A stretch of 64,000 nt of DNA from Ruminococcus sp. Marseille-P6503 (GTDB lineage: Bacteria; Bacillota; Clostridia; Oscillospirales; Ruminococcaceae), in the NCBI RefSeq assembly GCF_900604945.1, contig NZ_UWPB01000001.1:682001-746000 (forward strand), written 5' to 3'. Positions 27,804 to 53,874 of this stretch are shown here, piece by piece. Under the pieces are notes generated by a model. The model saw only the letters and a list, made by a program, of their open reading frames with translations. It was not told the DNA's origin and made no database searches. Every line of letters starts with the position of its first letter. Positions within the stretch are counted from its first letter, which is position 1. Made by a program: the position numbers and the translations under genes.

Positions 27804-27833
27804 TTGACAGTTTATAAGAAAACGTGTTATAAT
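27804..27833 (+). promoter_or_regulatory. sigma-A promoter of the B12 operon
   Basis: A perfect TTGACA at 27804–27809 and a perfect TATAAT at 27828–27833, spacer 18 bases. The start of transcription would be near 27840, about 45 bases before the cobalamin aptamer. Confidence 0.85.
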
Positions 27834-27880
27834 GCTAATGGCAATATGCGTATTTTTCTGCATAGCCTCAAATCGAATAT

Positions 27881-28006
27881 TCTCAGGGACGCGGTTTGAA
27901 AAGTTGTTAACCTAGTAAGTAATTGGGAATCCGGTTCGAATCCGGAACAACCGTCATTACTGTGTTTGGCGTTGCCGCCATAAGTCAGAATACTCCCGCG
28001 TCCTCA
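27881..28006 (+). ncRNA. cobalamin riboswitch aptamer
   Basis: The 27.9 kb leader shows the cobalamin-riboswitch core: GGGAA at 27925–27929, then a CCGG/CCGG hairpin and GAAC (27930–27948), the ACTGT element (27959–27963) and AAGTCAG (27981–27987). The whole is closed by GGACGCGG (27887–27894) pairing with CCGCGTCC (27996–28003). This matches the known order of conserved elements, though some positions deviate. The downstream region to 28190 is T-rich and has hairpins (e.g. CGAAGA 28026–28031 with TCTTCG 28062–28067), but I could not settle the expression platform. It controls the ECF/transcobalamin-like operon. Confidence 0.8.
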
Positions 28007-28194
28007 GCGGTATTGCCGTCTTGGACGAAGAAGAAGCGCAGCCGGCTTTTGCGGAGATTTGTCTTCGGTAAGCAGACGTATGTATTTTTTCTGAGTTTAT
28101 CTGGCTTGCCGCGCTCTGTTTTTATAAGTCTGTTGTGCTTTCTTTGCTTTTTAGCTTTGAAAGCGTTTTTTATTGTCTGAGAGAAAGGAATCGT

Positions 28195-28506
28195 ATGATG
28201 AAAAAAGACGAAAAAACAGAAATTGCTGTGAATATGCTGACAAGTAAAAGCGCTGAGCTCGGACGGCTTCCAAAGAGAAGCGATTTTGAAAGCAGTGACG
28301 TGTGCTTTATCAAGCAGAAGCTCGGACCTTGGCCCAGAGCTTTGGAGCGCGCGGGGCTTAAAGAGGCGGTTAAGCCTTCCGCGGCTGAAAGAAGCCGGGA
28401 AAAAAGAACGCGCGCGAAGGAAAGAAGGAAAGCCGGAAAAACAAACGGCTTAAATTACGTCTCAAATAAATTTGACGGAGGAAAAGAAAATGAAAATCAC
28501 TGCTAA
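28195..28506 (+). CDS. small basic protein with HNH-associated repeat
   Basis: The 103-residue protein is the first gene after the cobalamin riboswitch. Residues about 20–55 (LGRLPKRSDF then FIKQKLGPWPRALERAGLK) match the helical 'homing endonuclease associated repeat' pattern (G-x-x-P ... fGxWxxALexAGL), a small DNA-binding helix module. The C-terminal 45 residues are very basic (many Lys and Arg). No nuclease core is present. The ribosome binding site GAAAGG precedes ATG 28195. It overlaps the next gene by 17 bases, so it is coupled to it. It may be a regulator of the operon, but no role is known to me. Confidence 0.65.
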   Translation: MMKKDEKTEIAVNMLTSKSAELGRLPKRSDFESSDVCFIKQKLGPWPRALERAGLKEAVKPSAAERSREKRTRAKERRKAGKTNGLNYVSNKFDGGKENENHC

Positions 28507-30553
28507 AATTTTATCCGCGGCAGCGGCAATTTTTGCCTGTTCGGTAAGCTGGTCGACGTTTGCGGAGGACGGAACAGGAAAGGTGAGAGTAACAGTTGAA
28601 AACAATACGTTTTCAATTGCTGAAGGCGCGGCATGGGACGGAGAACTGCTGGACGTATGGATCGACGTTGATGAAGCGGCAGAGTTGGCTGACGCAGTTA
28701 AAGCTGCTTTTGAAGACAGCGGCTATTCGATTTCCGGGCTGGACATGGGCTATGTGACTGATATCAACGGAGTCGGAATCGACACCGCGGCCGATATGGG
28801 CGGTTGGATGTTTACGCTGAACGACTGGTTTACCAACGAGGTCATGTCTGCCTACACTGTATCTGACGGCGATGAGATATGCTTTCAGTATACCTGCAAC
28901 TGGGGACCTGATATAGGAAGCGACTGGTCCAGCGGCAGCACTCTGCTTAAGGATTTGGTATTCAGCGCCGGGACTCTTGACAAAGCATTTGATCCGCAGG
29001 AGAAAGAGTATACTCTTTCTATAACCGACGGCTCGGAGAGCGTAAAGGTCGTTCCGACTGCTGAAAACAAAAACTTTCAGGTAAGGACCTATAAAACCAA
29101 TTATACTCCTGAAGCCGACGGAAGCGAATATAAAAGAAGCGAATATATTCCGGTTTCAAACGGCGACGTACTGTATATAGGCGTAGGAAATTCCTCCTGG
29201 CCCAGCATGAACAGCGGACAGACCGAAACCGTATATTCTGTAAATATCGTTTCGGAGAAGGAGTCTGATATTTCCGACCAGCTTGCGGCTGACGAGGTGG
29301 ACGGCCTTATAGCTCAGATCGGAGAGGTTACTATTAACAGCAAATCGGCGATTGAAAAAGCCCGCGCGGCGTATGCAAGGCTTACGGACGCCCAGAAGGC
29401 TCTCTGCAAAAGCTATGATGTGCTTGTTGCGGCAGAGGAAGCATATGCTAAGCTTGTAGAGCAGAAGCTTTCTTCTTTTGACGAGATATTTGAAAGCGTG
29501 GGCGATAGTCTGCTGAGCGGCGGTATTCCGCAGGTAAGCTCGGTGGGAGGAGAATGGACGGCAATAGGTCTTGCGCGAAGCGGAAGGATCACCGATGAAT
29601 TTTCCGAGGGATATTATGAGAACGCCGTTAATTACTTAAGAGCAAACGGCTCGGCAAAGCTCAGCAACACAAAGTCGGCTGATAATTCGAGAATGATTCT
29701 GGCTCTCACCTCGCTGGGCTATGATGTTACCGACGTCGGGGGATATAATATTCTTGAGCCCCTTTCAGATTTTGATTATGTCGTTAAGCAGGGAATAAAC
29801 GGCGCGGCATGGGCTTTGATCGCTTTTGATTCAAACAATTATGATATTCCCGTTTCGGATTCAGATAATCCGGCCTCAAGAGAAAAGCTGGTGGATTATA
29901 TTATTTCACAGCAGCTTTCAGACGGGGCGTTTTCCCTTGACGGAGAAAATGCGGATATTGACGTAACCGCTATGGTTATAACGTCGCTGGCTCCTTATTA
30001 TGAAGATGAAACGGTAAAAGCGGCTGTGGATAAGGCGCTTGATATGCTTTCCGCTTCGCAGAACGGCGACGGAACGTTTTCTTCCGGCGGACAGGCAAAC
30101 TGCGAGAGCGCCGCTCAGATGATCGTTGCGCTTTCAAGCCTCGGAATTGATCCTTCGTCTGATGAGAGATTTGTTAAGGACGGCGTTTCAGCGCTTGACG
30201 CTTTGAAGCTGTTTTATATTGACGGCGGCTTTAAGCATACTTCTGACAGCTCGTCGGTAAATCAGATGTCTACAGAGCAGGGATATTATGCAATCGCCGC
30301 GTATTACAGATTTGTTGAAGGAAAAAATACGCTGTTCGATATGACTGACGTTGTAAGCGTAAATAATCCGGCAGTTGGAAACACAGACGAAAGCTCGGAA
30401 CAGAATACGTCGGATATTGCTTCCTCTTCATCTGAAAGCAAGTCTGACGATAAAGTACCGGCTACAGGAAGCTTATCCGGCGCAATTGCAATCATGCTTG
30501 CCGCAGTTTCGGCGGGAGCGGCAATGACTTTAAAGAAAAAGTCGGAAAAATAA
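28490..30553 (+). CDS. transcobalamin-like surface protein (DUF4430 + alpha/alpha barrel, sortase-anchored)
   Basis: The 687-residue protein has, in order: a signal peptide (1–24); a DUF4430/transcobalamin-like beta domain (about 30–135, with GGWMFTLNDWFTNEV and SDGDEICFQYT); a cadherin-like beta-sandwich (about 145–255); a helical linker (about 265–330); a prenyltransferase/terpenoid-cyclase-like alpha/alpha barrel (about 335–640, repeats such as DVTAMVITSL and DGTFSSGGQANCESAAQMI); and a sorting signal VPATG at 656–660, hydrophobic helix and KKKSEK tail. A beta domain plus an alpha6 barrel is the architecture of animal intrinsic factor and transcobalamin. With the cobalamin riboswitch and ECF genes this predicts surface B12 or corrinoid binding. 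ATG 28490 follows GGAGGAAAAG. Confidence 0.85.
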   Translation: MKITAKILSAAAAIFACSVSWSTFAEDGTGKVRVTVENNTFSIAEGAAWDGELLDVWIDVDEAAELADAVKAAFEDSGYSISGLDMGYVTDINGVGIDTAADMGGWMFTLNDWFTNEVMSAYTVSDGDEICFQYTCNWGPDIGSDWSSGSTLLKDLVFSAGTLDKAFDPQEKEYTLSITDGSESVKVVPTAENKNFQVRTYKTNYTPEADGSEYKRSEYIPVSNGDVLYIGVGNSSWPSMNSGQTETVYSVNIVSEKESDISDQLAADEVDGLIAQIGEVTINSKSAIEKARAAYARLTDAQKALCKSYDVLVAAEEAYAKLVEQKLSSFDEIFESVGDSLLSGGIPQVSSVGGEWTAIGLARSGRITDEFSEGYYENAVNYLRANGSAKLSNTKSADNSRMILALTSLGYDVTDVGGYNILEPLSDFDYVVKQGINGAAWALIAFDSNNYDIPVSDSDNPASREKLVDYIISQQLSDGAFSLDGENADIDVTAMVITSLAPYYEDETVKAAVDKALDMLSASQNGDGTFSSGGQANCESAAQMIVALSSLGIDPSSDERFVKDGVSALDALKLFYIDGGFKHTSDSSSVNQMSTEQGYYAIAAYYRFVEGKNTLFDMTDVVSVNNPAVGNTDESSEQNTSDIASSSSESKSDDKVPATGSLSGAIAIMLAAVSAGAAMTLKKKSEK

Positions 30554-30574
30554 TCTGCGGCAGAGGAGATATTA

Positions 30575-31420
30575 ATGCTTGAACGGCTGAAAAAATATAA
30601 ATTCCGTATCGCCGGAGCTGTTATAGCCGCAGGCATTCTTGCCGCGGCATACTGGTACGAAGGGGATTCTCCCGATTCGCATGGGTGGGTCATAACGGAG
30701 TCCTCGTCCGACAGCTCAGTAACTTCGCAAGATACATGGAGTCCTGATTTGATCGTTCAGAATGACGCGCAGGATTCGTCTTATACGCGTAAGGCTGATT
30801 TATCGGATACGGACGGCAGTTTTCCGGCTGAGGCTTCTGAGGAAAAGACAGAAGCTTCAGACGCTGCGTCTCAGGCTGAAGAAACGGAAAACACTTCTTT
30901 GGTAATTAAGGATACCGAAAGCAGAGAAACCGCTCAGCCGCAGGAAAGTTCCGCGGCGGAAACAGGGGCTTACTTCGGTCAGTCACAGCAGCCGGAGAAG
31001 TCTGAGCCTGAGTGCACCGTTTCTGTTTCCTGCGCGGCTGTTCTTGACAATATGGATAAGCTTGACAGCGATAAGCATGAGCTTGTTCCGTCGGACGGCT
31101 GGCTGCTGTCTGAAACCCAAGCTGTTTTGAACGACGGGGAAACGGTTTTCGATGTGCTTCAGAGAGTATGCAGGGATAACGGCATACATCTTGAAAGCTC
31201 GTGGACGCCTTTGTATGATTCAGCTTATATTGAGGGTATAGGCAACCTGTACGAGTTTGACTGCGGAAGCCTTTCCGGCTGGATGTACAGCGTAAACGGT
31301 GAATTTCCCAATTACAGCTGTTCTCAGTATATACCGGAGGACGGAGATGTAATTTGTTTTGTTTATACCTGCGAGCTTGGAAAGGACGTAGGCGGAGATT
31401 ATTATGGTCAAAACCAGTAG
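30575..31420 (+). CDS. membrane-tethered DUF4430 (transcobalamin beta-domain) protein
   Basis: The 281-residue product has an N-terminal membrane anchor or signal peptide (about 11–28, IAGAVIAAGILAAAYWY, no lipobox), a low-complexity Ser/Thr/Glu-rich spacer of about 110 residues, and a C-terminal DUF4430 domain (about 150–278) with TVFDVLQRVCRDNGIHLES, SGWMYSVNGEFPNY and EDGDVICFVYTCELGKD. It repeats only the beta domain of the preceding protein, without the barrel. A likely role is as a tethered intermediate that passes cobalamin from the wall-anchored protein to the transporter. The stalk-like spacer fits that. Function is inferred from domain and context. Confidence 0.8.
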   Translation: MLERLKKYKFRIAGAVIAAGILAAAYWYEGDSPDSHGWVITESSSDSSVTSQDTWSPDLIVQNDAQDSSYTRKADLSDTDGSFPAEASEEKTEASDAASQAEETENTSLVIKDTESRETAQPQESSAAETGAYFGQSQQPEKSEPECTVSVSCAAVLDNMDKLDSDKHELVPSDGWLLSETQAVLNDGETVFDVLQRVCRDNGIHLESSWTPLYDSAYIEGIGNLYEFDCGSLSGWMYSVNGEFPNYSCSQYIPEDGDVICFVYTCELGKDVGGDYYGQNQ

Positions 31421-31462
31421 GCTTAAAAGAACGGTTTTATACATTTGATGAGGGAGGAACGC

Positions 31463-31486
31463 TTGCCAATATGGCATGGCATATGA
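31463..31486 (+). CDS. 7-codon ORF abutting ecfT, possible coupling leader
   Basis: TTG 31463 follows GGGAGGAACGC and opens a frame MPIWHGI ending in TGA at 31484–31486, directly before the ecfT ATG. The ecfT start has no ribosome binding site of its own. This could be a translational coupling device, or chance. Confidence 0.25.
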   Translation: MPIWHGI

Positions 31487-32377
31487 ATGAAAGATAGTTT
31501 TTCACGATTTCATCCTTTGGTGAACTTTTGTTATTTTACGGCGGTGCTGTTGTTTTCTATGTTTGTTATGAATCCTGTTTTTTCGGTCATAGCGTTGATA
31601 AACGCCGCTGCATATTCTGTTTATCTGAGCGGACGCAAAAGCGTCCGCTTCGGACTTTTATACCTTATTCCGGCTATGCTTATGCTGATCGTGATAAACC
31701 CCGCGTTCAACCATCAGGGCGCTACGATAGCGGCATATCTGCCCAACGGAAATCCTCTTACTGTAGAATCCATAATCTACGGCGTAATGGCGGCGCTGCT
31801 GATAGCTCAGGTGATAATGTGGTTTTCATGCTTTAACAAGATAATGACCGCAGATAAATTCATGTATCTTTTCGGAAAAATAATTCCTCATCTCAGCCTT
31901 ATGCTGTCAATGAGCTTCAGGTTTATTCCCAGGTTCAAGGCTCAGTTTAACAAGGTGAAGGAAGCGCAGCGGTGTATCGGATATGATATTTCTGTAGGCG
32001 GGATAGTTCAGCGCATGAAAAACGCGGTCAGGATTTTCGGGGTAATGATAAGCTGGTCGCTTGAAAGCGCGGTTGAAACCGCCGATTCAATGAGAAGCAG
32101 AGGCTACGGTACCATGAAAAGAACCTCGTTTGCAAGATACGGCTTTGAAAAAAGAGACGGCTTCATTCTTGCTTTGACAGCTGTGCTGAGCGGTTATATA
32201 GTTTTCGGCTGCGCAATGGGTTATGCGGACTTCAGATGTTTCCCGACGGTTAAGATGACTCCCGTTACGGCGCTGCCGATAACGGTTTATGTTTGTTATT
32301 TTGCGCTTTGCTCTATGCCGATGATAATAAATTTACAGGAGGACAGAAAGTGGAAATATTTAAGGTCGAAGATTTAA
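31487..32377 (+). CDS. ECF transporter transmembrane subunit (EcfT/CbiQ family)
   Basis: The 296-residue membrane protein is the T component that couples ECF ATPases to a substrate-binding S component. It has about five to six helices, and the cytosolic coupling region contains the conserved Ala-Arg-Gly motif in ADSMRSRGYG (about 204–213) after FRFIPRFKAQFNKVKEAQ. It belongs to the cobalamin-riboswitch operon, so B12 is the expected cargo. No Shine–Dalgarno lies next to its ATG; a short upstream ORF may deliver ribosomes. Its end overlaps the next gene by 28 bases. Confidence 0.9.
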   Translation: MKDSFSRFHPLVNFCYFTAVLLFSMFVMNPVFSVIALINAAAYSVYLSGRKSVRFGLLYLIPAMLMLIVINPAFNHQGATIAAYLPNGNPLTVESIIYGVMAALLIAQVIMWFSCFNKIMTADKFMYLFGKIIPHLSLMLSMSFRFIPRFKAQFNKVKEAQRCIGYDISVGGIVQRMKNAVRIFGVMISWSLESAVETADSMRSRGYGTMKRTSFARYGFEKRDGFILALTAVLSGYIVFGCAMGYADFRCFPTVKMTPVTALPITVYVCYFALCSMPMIINLQEDRKWKYLRSKI

Positions 32378-35004
32378 GCTTTGCGTATCCTGAAAGCGAC
32401 GTCAATGCAATAGAAAACGTTTCTTTTTCCGTTTTCTCCGGTGAGTTTATGACCTTATGCGGACCGTCCGGCTGCGGAAAGAGCACTCTGCTAAGACATT
32501 TTAAAACCGTTCTCTCTCCTCACGGCAGAAGATCGGGGCGGGTTTTGTTTAAAGAAGCTGTATTGAATGACATTACGGCGGATGTCCAGAGCAGTGAAAT
32601 AGGTTTTGTCGGACAGTCGCCGGATGATCAGATCGTGACGGATAAGGTCTGGCATGAGCTTGCGTTCGGGCTGGAAAGCCTTGGGCTTGACAGTGATACC
32701 ATACGCAGAAAAACTGCTGAAACAGCCGCCTTTTTCGGTATACAGAGCTGGTTTGAAAAAAACGTAAGCGAGCTTTCCGGCGGTCAGAAGCAGCTGCTTA
32801 ATCTTGCTTCTGTTCTGGTAATGAAACCGTCGGTTCTGATTCTGGACGAGCCGACGGCTCAGCTTGATCCTATCGCGGCTTCAGAGTTTATAAGCGTGCT
32901 TGTAAAAGTAAACCGGGAGCTTGGCATAACGGTTATCATTACTGAACACAGGCTTGAGGAGATCATTCCGGTAAGCGACCGTTTGCTCGCGATGGATAAG
33001 GGCAGGATTATATGCGACGGGACTCCGGATAAAACCGCGGAATTTTTAAAAAGCAGCGGTATGTTCGCCGCAATGCCGGCTCCTATGCGTATCTGGTCTG
33101 CTTTGCCTGACAACGAAACCTGCCCGCTGACAGTAGGAGAGGGAAGGGTATGGCTCGAGAGCTATTCTCTCAGTCACACGCCGGAGCCTTTAAAAAGGGA
33201 ATATATAAGCAGCGGCGGAGAAACGGTTTTAGATGCGGAAAACATATGGTTCAGATATGACAGGGACGGAGAAGATATACTTAAAGGAGTATCGGTGAAA
33301 GCGGAAAAGGGCGAGCTACTTGCGGTGATCGGAGGTAACGGAACCGGGAAAACCACCTTGCTTTCCGTTCTCAGCGGAGCAAACCGTCCGTACAGAGGTC
33401 ATGTAAAGGTCAAAGGGAAAAAATTTGAGGAGTTAGGGAACCTCTGCGGTAAAGTTATCGGAGCGGTTCCTCAGAATCCTTCGGCTTTGTTTGTCAAAAA
33501 AACTCTGCATGATGATCTGTCGGAAATGCTTGACGGCAAAAAAACAGCACCCTCTGATAAAAGCAAGGCAGTAACTGCTGTCATGAGGCTGTGCGGAATA
33601 GAGAAGCTCGCTTTACGTCATCCGTACGATCTTTCAGGCGGCGAAAGGCAGAAAGCGGCGCTTGCTAAGGTCCTGCTGGCAGATCCCGAGATACTGCTGC
33701 TGGACGAGCCCACCAAAGGACTTGACGCGGAGTTCAAAAAAACGTTTGCCGCGATACTCAGAGAGCTGTGCCTGAGAGGCAGGACGGTAATAATGGTAAG
33801 TCATGATATTGAATTCTGCGCCGAATATGCCGACAGGTGCGTCATGCTGTTCAACGGCGCTGCGGGCGCCGAGGGCAGACCGTCTGAATTTTTTGCGGAA
33901 AATATGTTTTATACAACAGCCGCAAGCCGTATGGCGGGAGGAATAGTCGGCGGCGCGGTTACCGTTGACGATGTAATTTCTGCGTTCGGGGGACAGACTG
34001 AGGAGCCGGCGTCAATTGATACCTCCTTTCTTGACGGTAAAATACCGGAAGTGGAAAGTCTGCGCAGAAATGAGCCGGAGAAAATCAAAGCACCGCTGAA
34101 ACGCAGGATTTTCGGGTTTTCAGGGCTTGCGGTCATAGCCGCCGCGATATGTTTAAGCTTCGGACTGATAAAAGCGCCTGAGACCTTGTATGGGGTAAAT
34201 TTTGAATATATACTGCTTATTCTGTCCGCAGTGCTGTTTGCGGCGGCTTTCTGGAAAAGGTTCGATCGCAGGACATATGAAATACAGACTGAAATCAAGA
34301 AGCGGCGCATAAAAAAAAGAACTGCCGCCGCGGCAGCAATGATATTGCTTGCGGTTCCGCTGACGGTTTTTATAGGTGTCTATTATCTTGGCGACAAGAA
34401 ATATCTTTTTATTTCTTTGCTGGTTATGCTGGAATGTATGCTTCCTTTCTTTATGATATTTGAAGGAAGAAAGCCGCAGGCGAGAGAGCTTGTTATAATA
34501 TCGGTGTTGTGCGCGCTGGGAGTTGCCGGCAGGGCGGCATTTTATATGCTTCCTCAGTTCAAGCCGGTGCTGGCGCTGGTAATAATTTCAGGAGTTTCTT
34601 TCGGAGGAGAAACAGGCTTTCTTGTAGGCGCTGTGACCATGCTTGTTTCAAATATGTTTTTTCAGCAGGGTCCGTGGACTCCGTGGCAGATGTTCGCAAT
34701 GGGAATTATCGGCTTTTTGTCGGGAATTATATTCCGCAAGGGCTTTCTGCGGCGCGACCGTATTTCTCTGTGCATATTCGGAATGCTCAGCGCCGTGATA
34801 ATATACGGAGGCATTATGAATCCCTCCGCTGCGATAACGGCGGGGATAAAGCTTAACAGATCGGCGCTGCTGTCCTATTATGCCGCAGGGCTTCCTTTGG
34901 ACGTAGTGCACGGCTTGGCAACGGCAGTGTTTTTGTTTATTGGCGCCGAGCCAATGCTTGACAAGCTGGATAGAGTCAAGGTAAAGTACGGACTGATTGA
35001 GTAG
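32350..35004 (+). CDS. fused ECF transporter: two ATPase domains plus membrane S-like domain
   Basis: One 884-residue polypeptide. ATPase 1: Walker A GPSGCGKST near 38, signature ELSGGQKQLLNLA, Walker B VLILDEPTAQLD near 163. ATPase 2: Walker A GGNGTGKTT near 328, signature DLSGGERQKAALA, Walker B ILLLDEPTKGLD near 448. From about 590 to the end are hydrophobic helices; the last part (ELVIISVLCALGVAGRAAF, GVSFGGETGFLVGAVTML and PWTPWQMFAMGIIGFLSG) matches ECF S components of the vitamin type. The start is GTG 32350 with AGGAGG seven bases upstream. Fusing EcfA, EcfA' and S means one chain plus EcfT makes a dedicated ECF importer. Riboswitch context points to cobalamin (CblT/CbrT-like). Confidence 0.88.
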   Translation: MEIFKVEDLSFAYPESDVNAIENVSFSVFSGEFMTLCGPSGCGKSTLLRHFKTVLSPHGRRSGRVLFKEAVLNDITADVQSSEIGFVGQSPDDQIVTDKVWHELAFGLESLGLDSDTIRRKTAETAAFFGIQSWFEKNVSELSGGQKQLLNLASVLVMKPSVLILDEPTAQLDPIAASEFISVLVKVNRELGITVIITEHRLEEIIPVSDRLLAMDKGRIICDGTPDKTAEFLKSSGMFAAMPAPMRIWSALPDNETCPLTVGEGRVWLESYSLSHTPEPLKREYISSGGETVLDAENIWFRYDRDGEDILKGVSVKAEKGELLAVIGGNGTGKTTLLSVLSGANRPYRGHVKVKGKKFEELGNLCGKVIGAVPQNPSALFVKKTLHDDLSEMLDGKKTAPSDKSKAVTAVMRLCGIEKLALRHPYDLSGGERQKAALAKVLLADPEILLLDEPTKGLDAEFKKTFAAILRELCLRGRTVIMVSHDIEFCAEYADRCVMLFNGAAGAEGRPSEFFAENMFYTTAASRMAGGIVGGAVTVDDVISAFGGQTEEPASIDTSFLDGKIPEVESLRRNEPEKIKAPLKRRIFGFSGLAVIAAAICLSFGLIKAPETLYGVNFEYILLILSAVLFAAAFWKRFDRRTYEIQTEIKKRRIKKRTAAAAAMILLAVPLTVFIGVYYLGDKKYLFISLLVMLECMLPFFMIFEGRKPQARELVIISVLCALGVAGRAAFYMLPQFKPVLALVIISGVSFGGETGFLVGAVTMLVSNMFFQQGPWTPWQMFAMGIIGFLSGIIFRKGFLRRDRISLCIFGMLSAVIIYGGIMNPSAAITAGIKLNRSALLSYYAAGLPLDVVHGLATAVFLFIGAEPMLDKLDRVKVKYGLIE

Positions 35005-35162: not shown

Positions 35163-35612
35163 TTGCAGAGCAAAGCAGTCAAAGTATTTACATTATTCGC
35201 CGTAGGAGCGCTTATATACGGTATGATAGAAATATCGGTAAGAGGCTTTACTCATATAACGATGGGTGTTTTGGGCGGAATATCAATGGTAGTGATACAT
35301 TTGCTAAATGATGAGCGGCGGAGAGGCATGAATTACTTTTTGCAGATTTCCATAGCGGCTTTTTTTATAACTGCCATTGAATTTTTGGCAGGCGAGATTT
35401 TAAACCGGTATCTTCAAATGAATATCTGGGATTATTCAGATATTCCGCTTAATTTTGACGGACAAATTTGTCTGCCTTTTGTTTTTTTGTGGGTGATACT
35501 TGCCGCTTTAGGAACGGCTGTTGATGATTTTTTACGTTGGAAAATGTTCAGGGAACCTAAAAATTTTCGGTATCTGAAAGGCGTAAAAGCGATTCATGCC
35601 GACGCTAATTAA
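35163..35612 (+). CDS. CmpB-like putative ABC-transporter type IV membrane protein
   Basis: The 149-residue product has four hydrophobic segments and the block LAGEILNRYLQMNIWDYS followed by GQICLPFVFLWVIL, typical of the 'putative ABC transporter type IV / CmpB' membrane family (PF06541). The function of this family is not settled. The start is TTG 35163 after CGGAGG. The gap of 158 bases after the B12 operon is AT-rich and has no clear terminator, so partial read-through is possible. A strong terminator follows the gene. Confidence 0.75.
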   Translation: MQSKAVKVFTLFAVGALIYGMIEISVRGFTHITMGVLGGISMVVIHLLNDERRRGMNYFLQISIAAFFITAIEFLAGEILNRYLQMNIWDYSDIPLNFDGQICLPFVFLWVILAALGTAVDDFLRWKMFREPKNFRYLKGVKAIHADAN

Positions 35613-53638: not shown

Positions 53639-53682
53639 CATCATACAATATAATAAGAATGTTGACATATTTTAAGTCATAT

Positions 53683-53866
53683 GCCGATAGCACTCCATCA
53701 TAAGTAATGATGACAACTGGAGCTCTGTTAAAACTACAGTCAGCAGTCAGGTTTCCCAGACCTGTGCTTCGGCAGTCGCACCTTTCACATTTAAGAAAAA
53801 GCCTTGGGAAGCTGTGATGTCATACATCTCAAAAATGCTACTGATTTTGACCGCACCTCTATCTGT
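53683..53866 (-). ncRNA. lysine riboswitch (L box)
   Basis: The minus strand carries the L-box hallmarks in order: AGAGGTGCGG (plus 53851–53860), AGTAGCATTTTTGAG, GTGAAAGGTGCGACTGCCGAAG, and GGAGTGCTATCGGCAT near the 3' end (plus 53683–53699). A terminator follows. It should switch off asd–dapA–dapB when lysine is plentiful. The 5' end agrees with the promoter 10 bases upstream. This explains most of the 514-base gap between asd and queA. Confidence 0.9.
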
Positions 53867-53874
53867 TCTGTTTA

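Follow-up and report, generated by a model that had tools for sequence, protein, structure and literature searches.

Operon layout

We analyzed 64,000 nt of the genome of Ruminococcus sp. Marseille-P6503 (NZ_UWPB01000001.1, positions 682,001 to 746,000; hereafter, the window), in which five genes behind a cobalamin riboswitch aptamer form an operon that probably serves the acquisition of vitamin B12 (Table 1). The operon spans positions 27804–35004 (+) and consists of a promoter, the aptamer, a leader, and genes for a small HNH_repeat protein, a surface protein (here named TOR), a second, membrane-tethered surface protein (SLBB2), and an energy-coupling factor (ECF) importer made up of EcfT and a single chain carrying two ATPases and an S-component. 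The genes overlap by 17 nt (HNH_repeat/TOR) and 28 nt (EcfT/ATPase chain), with gaps of 21 and 66 nt at the other junctions, which is compatible with a single transcript. The promoter agrees with the consensus at all 12 positions, compared with a mean of 0.9 sites in the shuffled region at a looser rule (9/12). A competing fold from about position 28025 may act as an antiterminator to the putative terminator, and the leaders of congeners show comparable stems with U-runs. The operon is real and well conserved, and a first-pass annotation of the locus was right about its anatomy, having placed the riboswitch, the small protein, both surface proteins, EcfT, and the ATPase/S chain where we find them. 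Its description of a capture system “fused to an ECF importer” is incorrect because the surface proteins are encoded by separate, unfused genes.

Table 1. Features of the operon and of its surroundings in the window
Feature	Position	Strand	Length	Evidence and remarks
Sigma-70-type promoter	27804–27833	+		TTGACA-18 nt-TATAAT, TG ahead of −10; 12/12, consensus match only
Cobalamin riboswitch aptamer, compact type	27874–28015	+		RF00174, 31.7 bits (gathering score 31.5), E = 2.8e-4
Putative intrinsic terminator	28137–28172	+		GCUUUC...GAAAGC and U-run, inferred from folding
HNH_repeat protein (first gene after the riboswitch)	28195–28506	+	103 aa	PF18780, 1.1e-8
Surface protein TOR	28490–30553	+	687 aa	DUF4430, cadherin-like, alpha/alpha toroid, VPATG sortase-type tail
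TOR, DUF4430	28688–28894	+		4.9e-9
TOR, alpha/alpha toroid	29471–30325	+		
TOR, C-terminus	30455–30550	+		VPATG, hydrophobic stretch, KKK tail
Tethered DUF4430/SLBB protein (SLBB2)	30575–31420	+	281 aa	PF14478, 2.6e-17 (domain 31136–31369)
EcfT (CbiQ family)	31487–32377	+	296 aa	PF02361, 6.1e-11
Single chain EcfA–EcfA′–extra hydrophobic segments–CbrT-like S-component	32350–35004	+	884 aa	TIGR04520, PF07155, 6FNP_A
S-component of this chain	34477–34992	+		
CmpB-like membrane protein	35163–35612	+		PF06541; directly 3′ of the operon
Lysine riboswitch	53680–53869	−		Strong match, 99 bits

A CmpB-like gene also adjoins the operon in congener G003, and was not found in the other stretches searched with tblastn.

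ECF importer

The ECF transporter set is complete, with two ATPases, EcfT, and an S-component, all above their cut-offs. The ATPase pair matched TIGR04520 at 335.9 bits (cut-off 315) and contains two Walker A and two LSGG motifs; the chain starts with GTG preceded by AGGAGG and has eight hydrophobic segments, about four of them ahead of the S-component. In a search of the PDB, a 42-sequence profile of S domains (the window's and 41 of 59 others, 48–67% identical to it) matched 6FNP chain A with an E-value of 1.5e-13 over residues 710–881 of the window chain, and the next chain had 0.75. Judging by its length (182 aa) and its label (“Membrane protein”), we take chain A to be CbrT; 6FNP is described as the ECF-CbrT of L. 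delbrueckii, which imports cobalamin and cobinamide (PMC5997447). Since the S part is homologous to CbrT, the importer is assigned by homology as a B12 importer.

Of the 11 congeners having a DUF4430 match, 8 retain the order HNH_repeat–TOR–SLBB2–EcfT–ATPase/S chain, and the gene set is widespread among Clostridia. Among 80 named loci, many of them on contigs that end early, we found the toroid in 67, EcfT in 71, and EcfA–EcfA′ in 65; the triple fusion EcfA–EcfA′–S occurred in 50, and some other loci have a fused ATPase pair and a separate S gene. These relatives are mostly Clostridia (including Ruminococcus bromii and Blautia), alongside two records from Paenibacillus and a single assembly under the name Alistipes.

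Riboswitch

The cobalamin riboswitch proposed in the first-pass annotation matched RF00174 above the gathering score, and no second cobalamin match was found in the window or elsewhere in the 2.64 Mb genome. At the equivalent place, RF00174 was above the cut-off in congener G003 (32.4 bits) and below it in G002 and G008, and the aptamer core was readable ahead of the same gene in congeners L064–L066, L070, and L071, which RF00174 left uncalled under stricter filters. A profile of 24 leaders (of 28; L185, L187, L188, and L189 were left out, and several 5′ ends were trimmed) found a same-strand upstream aptamer core in 25 of the 80 named loci and gave no hit in a reversed control; two of the 25 matches (L138 and L143) were weak, and L123 had an extra one on the opposite strand. 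The 24 leaders were not copied from the 80 loci (best 87% over 79 nt). RNAalifold recovered only six pairs from them, with outer stems that appear misaligned. A chance hit at the threshold was rejected as the origin of the cobalamin call on the G003, G002, and G008 matches together with this profile.

We relied on the profile for the named loci, as mapping RF00174 by coordinate to 40 of them (18/40) was judged unreliable. Two of the RF00174 scans of relatives used stricter filters, and loci left unsettled by one of them were scanned again. In 61 genomes (the host's own and 60 relatives), a same-strand aptamer lay within 10 kb upstream of 21 of the 43 DUF4430 loci, against approximately 0.1 expected, in line with the linkage between DUF4430 neighborhoods and cobalamin riboswitches that had been put forward for survey. 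The named records and the genome set partly overlap, as G304 and G353 (the record of L123) have the same riboswitch place.

Compact aptamers of this type (leaders L064–L066, L070, L071, and L163–L195) scored weakly with RF00174, at 28.5–46.7 bits where called, and the type is possibly undercounted in surveys. Congener leaders share a conserved GTCTTGGAC-AAGAAGAAGCGCAGCC-like segment between aptamer and terminator. A minimal variant in G035 (L042:9105-10010) consists of a cobalamin riboswitch, a 133 aa DUF4430 protein, and a 166 aa membrane protein matching no Pfam family, which is perhaps an S-component on a shared module.

Probable host need for B12

The host genome is 99.98% complete. It gave no match to CobS (control positive in 10 of 14), the only synthesis gene searched, or to the FecCD (BtuC) permease (control positive in 13 of 14); thus, this search turned up neither a late step of B12 synthesis nor an importer of the BtuCDF type. 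The B12-binding domain PF02310 had one match in the genome, in an 818 aa frame that by its size would be methionine synthase. With one riboswitch, one protein with a B12-binding domain, and matches to neither CobS nor FecCD, the operon is the best candidate for B12 uptake by the host, which probably depends on B12 from outside.

Surface proteins

TOR has a signal-peptide-like hydrophobic N-terminus, and its cadherin-like match had an E-value of 3e-5. Its tail resembles a sortase signal, although the Pfam scan listed no anchor family; TOR proteins of congeners end in LPNTG, LPDTG, or NPxTG-like tails, and the genome has six sortase matches, four of them above the cut-off. In SLBB2, of which there are at least 586 coding relatives, a hydrophobic stretch is visible by eye at about residues 11–27, below the threshold of the hydropathy scan. 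Judged by these hydrophobic N-termini, both proteins would be exported. PF14478 (DUF4430) was above the cut-off in both, and the relation of this family to the C-terminal domain of transcobalamin, as claimed in the first-pass annotation, agrees with its placement in that clade by Burroughs, Balaji, Iyer, and Aravind in 2007 (PMC1796856). From their domains, both surface proteins are predicted to bind corrinoids.

The toroid region gave a weak Prenyltrans match (3.7e-4, below the cut-off), and comparison of structure models showed that the toroid fold is present. The model aligned with cobalamin-bound intrinsic factor over 240 residues. The architecture of intrinsic factor and transcobalamin that had been ascribed to TOR was upheld as to the two domain types and not as to their arrangement, since the toroid is N-terminal and the SLBB domain C-terminal in the animal proteins, the opposite of TOR, which also has additional domains. 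Toroid and DUF4430 stand in one chain in the intrinsic-factor order at L060–L062. The domain alignments covered the window and 46 of 77 toroid pieces (A4) or 43 of 80 DUF4430 domains (A6). In TOR, T493, Q543, and Q597, which do not vary in either of two alignments, and D491 are candidate ligand-contacting residues.

A terpene cyclase, considered as the identity of the toroid, was rejected on context (an exported protein, DUF4430 in the same chain, a B12 riboswitch), not on its active site. Very large frames of 2066–2544 aa with toroid matches precede importer genes at, for example, L083, L110, L130, L139, and L147. At L073, L092, and L112, an HNH_repeat gene lies between open reading frames that each match parts of a surface protein, as if the latter were split around it.

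Proposed mechanism and alternatives

We consider it likely, at a probability of roughly 0.8, that this is a B12 (corrinoid) acquisition operon of a probably B12-dependent clostridium, working by surface capture, hand-over, and import through a CbrT-like ECF transporter. At low cellular B12, the riboswitch would let transcription pass through the terminator, attenuation and its direction being our suggestion. The probably wall-anchored toroid–DUF4430 protein and the membrane-tethered DUF4430 protein would then capture corrinoid outside the membrane and may pass it directly to the CbrT-like S-component. The dedicated module of EcfT and fused EcfA–EcfA′ would turn the S-component over and thereby free B12 within the cell, for use by at least one enzyme with the size of a methionine synthase. 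The earlier idea that the surface proteins replace a BtuF-type lipoprotein was abandoned, as ECF importers have no need of BtuF.

Several observations weigh against this interpretation. The best sequence and fold matches of the toroid are terpene cyclases, ahead of B12 carriers, and the fold is not specific to such carriers. Sequence profile searches of the PDB never reached intrinsic factor or transcobalamin; the structural comparison suggested in the first-pass annotation sustained a likeness in fold for TOR residues 324–612 (the toroid). The riboswitch score is marginal, at the threshold, and 22 of the 43 DUF4430 loci were without a riboswitch call within 10 kb upstream. The terminator fold was no better than shuffles (z = −0.71) and was missed by a consensus scan. 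Finally, some archaea with such proteins also synthesize B12 according to the 2007 account (PMC1796856), which makes ligands other than B12 possible.

The importer might carry B12 while the surface proteins bind a polymer or a host carrier, or merely tether the complex to the wall, rather than bind free corrinoid. We regard this as unlikely, given that DUF4430 belongs to the transcobalamin C-terminal clade (PMC1796856), that both surface proteins recur together with the importer, and that toroid and DUF4430 are fused at L060–L062. Import of cobalt or nickel by a CbiMNQO-type system is very unlikely: EcfT matches the CbiQ family above the cut-off, the ATPases match cbiO models, and cobalt importers are also reported under cobalamin riboswitches (PMC3766115), but the S part is CbrT-like with no CbiM match, the lack of a CobS match leaves no sign of a B12 synthesis needing cobalt, and the CbiM behind a riboswitch in G021 is a distinct gene. 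That the S-component carries another vitamin such as riboflavin is hardly tenable, because, although its best Pfam family is ECF-ribofla_trS (PF07155, 38 bits, above the cut-off), its profile singles out the CbrT structure with no other PDB chain near, and the leader fits the cobalamin model, with no FMN riboswitch called in the window. Both cobalt import and riboflavin import were rejected as roles of the operon.

HNH_repeat protein

PF18780 (35.8 bits, cut-off 26) was the sole Pfam family listed for the HNH_repeat protein, and a homing nuclease was rejected as its identity because the Pfam scan found no HNH nuclease domain; an HNH_repeat protein of G043 that does have a nuclease domain has no riboswitch upstream. 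The predicted structure comprises three helices and a helical tail. Its profile (alignment A7, all 11 named proteins and the window's) found nothing usable among PDB sequences (best E = 0.094), and comparison with known DNA-binding folds did not confirm DNA binding.

Across 295 genomes, 38 of 54 HNH_repeat loci lay 134–987 nt behind a cobalamin aptamer, and we examined the downstream stretches of 36 of these 38 and of four unlinked loci. Aptamer-linked HNH_repeat genes also precede family-5 ABC importers and, in the related genome G021, CbiM. Their occurrence ahead of CbrT-type ECF, CbiM-type cobalt ECF, and family-5 ABC importers fits a tie to the switch rather than to any particular transporter. 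Tentatively, and with rather low confidence, we suggest that the protein, made under riboswitch control, may be a nucleic-acid-binding relay of B12 status that acts in trans and conveys the low-B12 signal from the single cobalamin riboswitch of the genome to further genes or RNAs, for example those of B12-independent isozymes. The link between HNH_repeat and cobalamin riboswitches looks new, as no earlier report was found in the literature searched. The single- or multi-repeat proteins at L153 (G021:C15), L154 (G021:C21), and L202 (G115:C3) stand behind cobalamin riboswitches and before CbiM, a heavy-metal P-type ATPase, and a family-5 ABC importer.

Comparison with known systems

Burroughs and colleagues described SLBB surface proteins fused to toroids in either order, with Gram-positive anchors, often a second SLBB protein, and operons with a CbiO-like ATPase and a CbiQ-like protein; the owners usually lack key B12 synthesis enzymes, and B12 scavenging was proposed as probable (PMC1796856). 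The window operon resembles these systems in its DUF4430/SLBB and toroid domains, putative anchor, second SLBB protein, and CbiO/CbiQ partners. The central idea of the first-pass annotation is plausible as a mechanism, whereas its novelty is mostly not upheld, and our finding is largely an independent rediscovery of the proposal in print since 2007. None of the terms “riboswitch,” “energy-coupling,” “homing,” and “HNH” occurs in the main text of that paper, and its cited parts name no S-component or EcfA–EcfA′–S fusion. Our additions are the statistics on riboswitches, the assignment of the S domain to CbrT, the wide occurrence of the EcfA–EcfA′–S fusion, the finding that the host genome gives no match to CobS or FecCD, and the HNH_repeat link; some of this may be in the founding ECF paper of 2009. 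The 2007 authors also proposed that animal B12 carriers were acquired from low-GC Gram-positives (PMC1796856), and the operon offers a test of this derivation from Gram-positive surface proteins.

As in ECF-CbrT (6FNP), the window importer has two ATPases, EcfT, and a homologous S-component. CbrT shares its module with other S-components as described (PMC5997447), whereas the window operon encodes module and S-component together, joins the latter to both ATPases in one chain, and has surface proteins in addition. A protein of L. rhamnosus is labelled “additional lipoprotein component of putative cobalamin ECF transporter,” and a DUF4430 protein adjoining rtpR is also named (PMC9963975); such add-on proteins were therefore already annotated. 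B12 entry into many human gut bacteria has been described as an open problem (PMC6593275), and for a large group of bacteria the operon provides an answer that can be tested directly.

Human intrinsic factor and transcobalamin (2PMV, 4ZRP) share with TOR the same two domain types and a toroid that aligns over most of its length, but differ in domain order, in the extra domains of TOR, and in sequence, with 15% identity over the toroid and no sequence-level match.

The BtuG and BtuH lipoproteins of Bacteroides have folds other than those of the window proteins and function in another envelope. Their binding of B12 at the surface reportedly feeds an importer (PMC6143338, PMC8941943), as we propose for the window operon.

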